From Rhodospirillales bacterium (GTDB lineage: Bacteria > Pseudomonadota > Alphaproteobacteria > Rhodospirillales > JASLLV01): DNA of 36,883 bases. Each line of letters opens with the position of its first letter. The stretch's first letter is position 1. Where the stretch lies: positions 1-36,883 of the forward strand of contig JASLLV010000005.1 of the NCBI GenBank assembly GCA_030746935.1, written 5' to 3'. Position numbers and translations under genes: made by a program. Shown piece by piece: positions 19,158-21,563 of the stretch. The notes under the pieces are model-generated. The model worked only from the letters and a program-made list of their open reading frames with translations, made no database searches and was not told the origin of the DNA.

Positions 19158-19679
19158 ATGACGATCGACATCAAGGACCATATTCGATCGATCCCCGACT
19201 TTCCCAAGCCGGGCATCCTTTTCTACGACATCTCTACCCTTCTCGCGCATCCGGATGCGTGGCAGGTGTGCATGGGCCGCCTTGCGAAACTCGTCAGCAG
19301 CCACCAACCCGATGTGCTCGCCGGGATCGAGTCGCGCGGATTCCTGGTGGCCGCGCCGCTGGCGCTCAAACTCGGCTGCGGCTTTGTCATGGTCCGCAAG
19401 CGGGGCAAACTGCCCGGGGTCACGATCGCCCACGAGTACGCGCTCGAATACGGCGCCGACAGCGTCGAGATCCAAGAGGACGCGGTCGCGCCCGGGCAAC
19501 GCGTCACGGTCCTGGACGACTTGCTCGCGACCGGCGGCACGATGGCCGCCACGATCGCCCTATTCCGGAGTGTCGGCGCCGAGGTGGTGGGCACCGCGTG
19601 CATCATCGAACTCACGTTCCTGAACGGACGCGAGAAAGTCGACGCACCGTTCGGATCGCTGGTCGCCTACGACGCCTGA
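19158..19679 (+). CDS. apt: Adenine phosphoribosyltransferase
   Basis: [58 protein letters not shown] motif [17 protein letters not shown]. Confidence 0.95.
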
Positions 19680-20878
19680 CCGCGCCCCGCCGCGCCGGGC
19701 TTATGGCCGAGCGCGTGGCGCGCAACCTTTCGCATCACCGTCGGCAACGCGTGGTCGCCGAGTCGCTCGACCGCGCACCAGGTCCATTGCGACCCGCAGC
19801 CAAGCTCCATATCGCCGTCGACGCGTCCCGACAGCACCGCGAGCTCGAGATCGAAGTGGGTGAAGGTGTGGCGCACCGTCCCACCAAGACGCCGCCAGGT
19901 GGCCTTCGCCGGCGCCCGCGCCCGTGCCTCGGCGATTTTCCACGGCCTGTCGCGCCAATCGGTCGACGGAAATTCCATTAGCCCGGCGAGAAGTCCCGTC
20001 AGCGGCCGTTTTCGCAACAACACACGGCCGTCGCCCCTGAACGTCCAGAAGACAACGCCCTGGCGGCGCGGCCGGACCGCCTTGGGCGGCCGCCGGGGGA
20101 AGGATTCCGGCCGTCCGGTACGAAGCGCACCGCAGTCCCGGGCAAGCGGGCAATCGCCGCAACGTGGCGCGCGGGGCACACACACGGTTGCGCCGAGATC
20201 CATCATCGCCTGGGCGTGGTCGCCCGCTCGCCTGTTCGGCACCAGCAGCTTCGCCCAGGCTCGGATGCGCGCACCCGCCGCCGTCGGCGCCTCGTCCGCG
20301 GCGAGGAGTCGGCCCAAAACGCGCACGACGTTCGAATCGACGACCGCCTCGGGCCGCGAAAACGCGATCGCAGCGACGGCGGCGGCGGTGTACTCGCCGA
20401 TCCCGGGCAGCGAGCGCAGGCTTTCCGCCGTATCCGGGAAACGGCCGCCGAGATCGCGAACGACGATGCGCGCCGTGGCATGCAGGTTGTGCGCGCGCGC
20501 ATAGTATCCGAGCCCTTGCCACGCGTGGAGGACGGCGTCCAGATCGGCGTCGGCAAGATCGCGGACCGTAGGCCAGCGGGCAACGAACGCCCCGTAGTAC
20601 GGAATCGTCGCAGCCACCGTGGTCTGTTGCAGCATGACCTCGCTCAGCCACACGCGATAGGGATCGGCGTGTCCCGCGGGCGTCCGCCACGGCAAGGCGC
20701 GCCCATGCACATCGTACCAGGCGAGCAGGCGGCGGCGGATCCGCACCACGCTCGGCGCCATGTTCGGTGCCACGTTCGGTGCCACGTTCGCCGCTACGCT
20801 CGCCGCCACGTTCGGTGCGATGGCGTGGGTTTGCGGCGATTCGCGCTTCGCGTCGCCCGGTTTGCGTTGTGCGCGCAC
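19667..20878 (-). CDS. mutY: A/G-specific adenine glycosylase MutY (start uncertain: GTG 20878 or ATG 20761)
   Basis: [30 protein letters not shown], helix-hairpin-helix [17 protein letters not shown], 4Fe-4S Cys cluster [18 protein letters not shown]-terminal NUDIX-like domain. Confidence 0.94.
20749..20820. repeat. Six imperfect 12-bp tandem repeats (consensus CGTTCGGTGCCA) at the mutY 5' end
   Basis: cgctcggcgcca|tgttcggtgcca|cgttcggtgcca|cgttcgccgcta|cgctcgccgcca|cgttcggtgcga. Confidence 0.85.
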
Positions 20879-20887
20879 GCTGTAGTC

Positions 20888-21021
20888 CTAGAGCACTATC
20901 TGGCCAGATTGGATCAAATTGATGGTGGCAATTCGGCTTGGCCGGGCGGGCGCGTCACGAAGCGCGTCTGGCGACGGCGCAAAATAATTCCGGTGTTCAA
21001 TCTGGCCGGATAGTGCTCTAG
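20888..21021. mobile_element. MITE-like non-autonomous element, 134 bp, 24-bp TIRs CTAGAGCACTATC(T/C)GGCCAGATTG
   Basis: Left arm 20888-20911 and right arm 20998-21021 are reverse complements with one mismatch. No internal ORF; TA/CTAG at both ends fits a target duplication. Confidence 0.72.
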
Positions 21022-21053: not shown

Positions 21054-21563
21054 ATGGGCAAAACACGATCGAAGCGCAGCAGCCGCGGGCTGCGGTCGAT
21101 TGCCGGCGTGGTGCCGAAGGTGACGAAGGCGGCATTCGCCAGGCGTGGATTCGCCGAAGGCGCCATCGTGACGGCGTGGCCGACAATCATCGGCCGCGAG
21201 CTCGCTGGGCGCTGCGTCCCCGACCGCATCGTCCGCGGACGCGACGGCGCGGGCGAGTCGGTTCTCAGGCTCCGCGTTGCGGGCGGCGCACTCGCGACCG
21301 AGCTTCTGCACTTGGCGCCCCAGCTCATCGAACGCGTCAACACGTTCTTCGGCTATCGCGCGGTAACGCAAATCGGGATCATCCAAGGACAGATCGACCA
21401 GCCGCCCGCCGGCCCGGAACGGAGGCCACGGAATCTCGACGCGGCAGGGGCCCGCGAGCTCGCGGCAACGTTGGAAGACGTGGGCGATGCCGAATTGAAA
21501 GCGGCCCTCGAGCGGTTGGGTCGGCAAATTCTCGCCCGCGCCGATCGCGACACCTCCGAATGA
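21054..21563 (+). CDS. DciA / DUF721 family protein
   Basis: VTKAAFARRGFAEGAIVTAWPTIIGRELAGRCVPDRI…LRLRVAGGALATELLHLAPQLIERVNTFFGYRAVTQIGIIQG. Confidence 0.87.
   Translation: MGKTRSKRSSRGLRSIAGVVPKVTKAAFARRGFAEGAIVTAWPTIIGRELAGRCVPDRIVRGRDGAGESVLRLRVAGGALATELLHLAPQLIERVNTFFGYRAVTQIGIIQGQIDQPPAGPERRPRNLDAAGARELAATLEDVGDAELKAALERLGRQILARADRDTSE

Follow-up and report, generated by a model that had tools for sequence, protein, structure and literature searches.

A TA-inserting MITE between mutY and dciA in a Rhodospirillales genome is a shortened member of a family with a conserved predicted fold

The sequence separating mutY from dciA in a marine Rhodospirillales bacterium contains a non-autonomous TA-inserting transposable element (MITE) that corresponds to an internally deleted form of a longer, structured repeat family. 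The explanation that we consider very likely as a whole is that a MITE occupies a CTAG site in the mutY/dciA interval, was shortened from a ~266-bp form, and owes its movement to an IS630-family enzyme acting in trans. In the mechanism we propose, a non-autonomous DNA transposon entered the CTAG site and doubled its central TA, most likely through cut-and-paste movement in which an IS630-family (Tc1/mariner-like, DDE) transposase supplied in trans recognized terminal inverted repeats (TIRs) of ~21-24 bp. The ancestor of this copy was the ~266-bp form, a predicted three-way junction composed of a TIR stem and two hairpin arms, from which ~136 bp were lost between two 8-bp direct repeats, one close to each arm tip. 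Replication slippage or template switching is the probable route of this loss.

The stretch of DNA analyzed here in its entirety (36,883 nucleotides, hereafter the window) comes from genome G000, a MAG of 2.49 Mb in 203 contigs that is 83% complete, and was compared with genome G001, a same-genus MAG (Rhodospirillales bacterium ETNP2_MAG_87) that is 87% complete. Two inverted-repeat arms of 24 bp, at 20888-20911 and 20998-21021, are 96% complementary and spaced 86 nt apart, matching the 24-bp TIRs with one mismatch and ~86 bp between them that a sequence-only reading of the window had described. The TIR pattern occurs in the window at these two sites only, where shuffled sequences lead one to expect none. 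With the target duplication set aside, the element proper measures 128 bp (20891-21018, GAGC...GCTC; Table 1). Folded as RNA, the window copy has a predicted energy of -74.1 kcal/mol (z -8.55). The Pfam-supported neighbors agree with the proposed location in a mutY-dciA-dsbA-smc block, as dciA is followed by a gene for a DsbA-type thioredoxin and then by SMC, and the gap from the element to the furthest possible mutY start (20878) measures 12 bp, near the initial estimate of ~10 bp. As a separate observation, tandem GCCACGTTCGGT-like units occupy positions 20759-20820 near the 5' end of the mutY frame, a region that is shorter in G001 and expanded in the window.

Table 1 Features of the window copy and its flanking genes
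Feature	Position	Strand	Evidence or remark
Left TA of target duplication	20889..20890	.	Context C-TA-G; empty site in G001 with single TA, GTAGGCCCTAGCTTAGCC
Outer bases of CTAG target	C20888 / G21021		
Left terminal inverted repeat, GAGCACTATCTGGCCAGATTG	20891..20911	+	96% complementary including the CTA prefix; 47 genome sites at <=3 mismatches
Interior remaining after ~136-bp deletion	20912..20997	.	Alignment with 266-bp copies; single GAAGCGCG
Right terminal inverted repeat	20998..21018	-	Inverted-repeat complementarity; genome TIR matches
Right TA of target duplication	21019..21020	.	Comparison with G001 empty site
mutY-like gene (HhH-GPD + NUDIX_4), flank, outside element	19667..20878	-	Pfam
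dciA (PF05258), flank, ATG at 21054	21054..21563	+	Pfam; 35 bp downstream of element

Copy numbers in G000 were obtained from sequence and TIR searches. A similarity search returned ~50 stretches that match the element, and the TIR was matched 47 times at three or fewer mismatches compared to zero times for a reversed control pattern; i.e., G000 holds two dozen or more copies. The exact TIR is also present on two G001 contigs. The mutY/dciA region of G001 aligns with that of the window at ~90% identity and lacks the element: its GTAGGCCCTAGCTTAGCC corresponds to GTAGTCCTA-[GAGC...GCTC]-TAGCTTAGCC in the window. Since this empty site has one TA, one TA became two upon insertion. For six more G000 insertions, the flanks were joined and aligned to G001, and every one of these sites proves empty there: four (L005, L006, L012, and L017) align across the junction without gaps once one TA is removed, while at L003 and L016 the G001 sequence has small deletions close to the insertion point. 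The flanks of G000 copies mostly read C/T-TA-G/A, and in some copies one TA has been lost or mutated. Taken together, the empty sites and the flank context indicate that the target is TA, mostly within C/T-TA-G/A, and that this TA is duplicated. The element is multi-copy, short, bounded by TIRs, devoid of a transposase ORF, flanked by a target-site duplication, and missing from orthologous sites, and it is thus a MITE. These observations uphold the sequence-only reading, which had proposed a MITE-like element with a TA/CTAG duplication at its outer ends and had regarded a single genome-wide copy, conserved across distant relatives at this locus only, as the outcome that would speak against mobility. 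One full-length copy, L005 (contig C150 of G000), lies between genes that by eye appear to be rplY and pth, at a site that is empty in G001.

Most G000 copies span 259-267 bp when measured from AGAG to CTCT, and the window copy measured likewise spans 130 bp. Alignment with 266-bp copies places the ~136 bp that it lacks in the middle of the element. In L003, the 8-bp direct repeat GAAGCGCG is found at element positions 70 and 200; the window copy has it at position 70 only, as expected for a deletion between short direct repeats, and its interior keeps the 5' portion of the full element's arm A along with the 3' portion of its arm B, joined at that one repeat. This origin from the ~266-bp three-way-junction family had been missed earlier because it is invisible from the window alone. 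A second 130-bp copy, L002, carries the same breakpoint. L002 is 94% identical to the full copy L007 and 85% identical to the window copy, which is itself nearest to another full copy, L005, at 89%. These identities led us to reject a shared 130-bp subfamily, and with each 130-bp copy nearer to a full copy than to the other, this deletion has probably occurred repeatedly.

Other derivatives without one or both arms occur in several genomes, in size classes that include 46-57 bp and 114-136 bp. Minimal elements of 46-47 bp, which consist of two TIRs back to back, are present in at least eight genomes (L057, L095, L108, L128, L132, L156, L201, L203, L205, L206, L209, and L210). L022 (contig C81 of G000) is full-size, but where its left interior should be it apparently has the other half in inverted form, the layout that template switching inside a palindrome would be expected to give. 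An additional repeat unrelated to the MITE, GGACCAGATCGTGGTCG... (~130 bp matched), occurs in the right flank of L010 and has more than 25 matches in G001 (loci L221-L243); GGACCAGATCGTGGTCG-like sequence is also located inside longer MITE copies, as the interior insert of L010/L011.

Full copies of 264-275 bp are distributed over at least seven genera (G000, G009, G016, G046, G299/G300, G374, and G619), with G374 and G619 belonging to other orders of Alphaproteobacteria. When ~30 full copies were folded singly, most yielded a TIR stem that closes two long hairpin arms in a three-way junction, and one G000 full copy reaches a predicted -152 kcal/mol (z -11.3). An alignment of 22 full copies gave a consensus of 69 base pairs, 36 of which have changed on both sides with pairing kept. 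Paired cells amount to 95.4%, versus 83.3% in shuffles and 35-41% with partners slid by 1-3 columns, and doubly changed cells number 157 versus 44 in shuffles; these counts refer to sequences and not to evolutionary events, the alignment is also the one from which the structure was taken, and quasipalindrome correction can produce changes that look compensatory. When each lineage is reduced to a single representative (n = 7, 55-88% identical), double changes persist in 26 of the 47 arm pairs, and 15 unpaired columns of the arms show no variation. As modeled, the fold is kept across the family though the sequences differ. No frame is consistently open across the 22 full copies, and a coding interior was rejected on this ground. 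Against Rfam 15, the window gave no match at the gathering score and four full-length loci gave no match at E<=1. GANTC, the CcrM methylation site, falls at the inner edge of one TIR (alignment column 22) in 14 of the 22 full copies and is absent from the window copy.

We raise only tentatively the possibility that the ~266-bp form represents an old transposable element spread through the class, in which selection acts on the three-way-junction fold itself (the TIR stem and two arms with conserved internal loops), either as DNA while it transposes or as RNA; it would then be a structured mobile RNA/DNA family that Rfam does not contain. We are more doubtful that the full-length copies are first of all a structured ncRNA or ssDNA element that also spreads by transposition, with a fold that functions, e.g., in mobilization or RNA processing. 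Such a role would fit the retention of the three-way junction at 55-88% sequence identity, together with the two-sided changes and invariant unpaired columns seen in the arms of the seven lineage representatives. However, quasipalindrome correction by template switching yields paired changes without selection on the fold, and the existence of armless, internally deleted copies of 46-57 bp and 114-136 bp in several genomes implies that movement may not require the arms. The lack of variation in those unpaired columns and the recurrence of internal loops favor some constraint over and above quasipalindrome correction, short of proof.

Insertion of IS630-family elements takes place at TA, which is thereby duplicated (PMC2170065); the same article cites Tenzen and Ohtsubo for the CTAG preference of IS630. 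The MITE displays the same TA duplication with a CTAG-like preference. It also has the terminal TA|GAGC found in the inverted repeats of four loci with IS630 transposase genes (DDE_3), namely L080 (G009), L146 (G257), L148 (G299), and L181 (G323), with which it has only the outermost 4-6 bases in common. The IS630 copies L180 and L182 (G619) possess different ends, and the subterminal TIRs of the IS630 copies in G009 and G619 differ from those of the element. At L080, the IS630-type sequence at 1164-2019 contains overlapping ORFs (1164-1475 and 1447-2019) and the TIR TAGAGCACGTCAGGATTGACGC; the overlap is suggestive of a transposase made by frameshift.

An autonomous parent with the same TIRs, for which the sequence-only reading had advised a search, did not emerge from the genomes searched. 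TIR searches that covered 317 genomes from the order plus a sample of 385 from the class returned none, no ~1-kb element bounded by the TIR is among the places listed, and no DDE_3 copy with a matching TIR was found in 18 genomes, copy-rich ones included. DDE_3 was undetected in the two MAGs G000 and G001 (83% and 87% complete) and in the other copy-rich genomes G300 and G046. Neither the ORFs beside unpaired TIRs nor the plasmids searched revealed an autonomous parent, and viral contigs contained no exact match to a 20-base core of the TIR. We therefore infer the IS630 assignment from the ends and the target only.

The same reading had left the enzyme as either IS630/mariner-like or of some IS5-like type. 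Mobilization by an IS5-family (IS427-like, TA-duplicating) transposase rather than by IS630 appears improbable to us: some IS5 elements are also compatible with TA duplication and G001 encodes one IS5-type transposase (PF13340), but the sole IS5-type copy with recognizable ends, L192 (G257), has the TIR GGGTTTGTTGAGAATCA, unlike the GAGCACTATCC of the element, and PF13340 was not detected in G000, G009, G300, or G374. Because related IS630 copies end in TA|GAGC and the ends of L192 differ, IS630/mariner is the favored enzyme type, which places the first of the two proposed options ahead of the second.

We detected neither a sigma-70-like promoter nor an intrinsic terminator in the mutY/dciA region, and the suggestion that the element might carry or replace the mutY promoter therefore finds no support. 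A transcript that runs through the insertion would carry a strong predicted hairpin. The notion that the element is a cis-acting regulatory hairpin of the divergent region, kept for control of mutY and dciA, is highly improbable: it has in its favor the strong predicted hairpin and a position that leaves 12 bp to the furthest mutY start and 35 bp to the dciA ATG, but copies are many and in unrelated places, the same site is empty in same-genus G001, and the region yielded no promoter or terminator of these kinds, so that the multi-copy spread and the empty site refute a regulatory hairpin as the element's origin. The simplest view is that of a tolerated MITE insertion, which would be nearly neutral for mutY and dciA apart from the added leader hairpin.

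TA-inserting MITEs are well known, and the noteworthy part is the structured full-length family, more than the window copy. Neither in Rfam 15 nor in the papers searched did we find a case of one MITE family that keeps a single elaborate interior fold across alphaproteobacterial genera, families, and orders, here with more than half of the pairs changed on both sides. If the fold matters, the family offers a tractable case for why some MITE interiors are conserved and for asking whether folded DNA or RNA aids the movement of non-autonomous elements. The filled and empty states of an insertion beside two core genes can also be used to measure the effect of a hairpin on expression.

No published description of the ~266-bp family is apparent in the portions of the literature searched, and one may exist beyond them. 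Among known systems, the comparisons with RUP, Correia/NEMIS, and CIR draw on the parts of PMC2229807 consulted. RUP (repeat unit of pneumococcus), whose mobilization in trans is credited to the transposase of IS630-Spn1, is likewise a short, non-coding, TA-targeting element; however, it measures 107 bp and its TIR resembles that of a known IS in the same genome, whereas here the parent was not found in the genomes searched and full copies reach ~266 bp with two hairpin arms. The Correia/NEMIS elements of Neisseria, compared by description, similarly have TIRs of ~24 bp, TA ends, longer and internally shorter classes, and a stable transcript hairpin, but they occupy another host class and a three-way junction is not mentioned in those parts of the source. 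The CcrM-associated CIR of Caulobacter, also compared by description, is an alphaproteobacterial intergenic element with two arms, TA ends, and phylogenetically conserved structures. In contrast to the family studied here, in which a TIR stem closes the two arms of a ~266-bp element and GANTC is found at the TIR edge only, CIR is ~110 bp long, has no TIRs closing the structure, and places GANTC in a hairpin loop. We rejected CIR membership in view of the TIRs, the ~266-bp full length, the position of GANTC outside the loop, and its absence from the window copy. PMC2170065 describes for the IS630 family (ISY100, IS630) the same TA insertion, 2-bp duplication, and CTAG preference, and IS630 copies of related genomes have the TA|GAGC ends of the element, which, unlike them, has no transposase gene. 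In its behavior the element resembles RUP, Correia, and further MITEs that target TA, from which its ~266-bp full form and two covarying arms set it apart.
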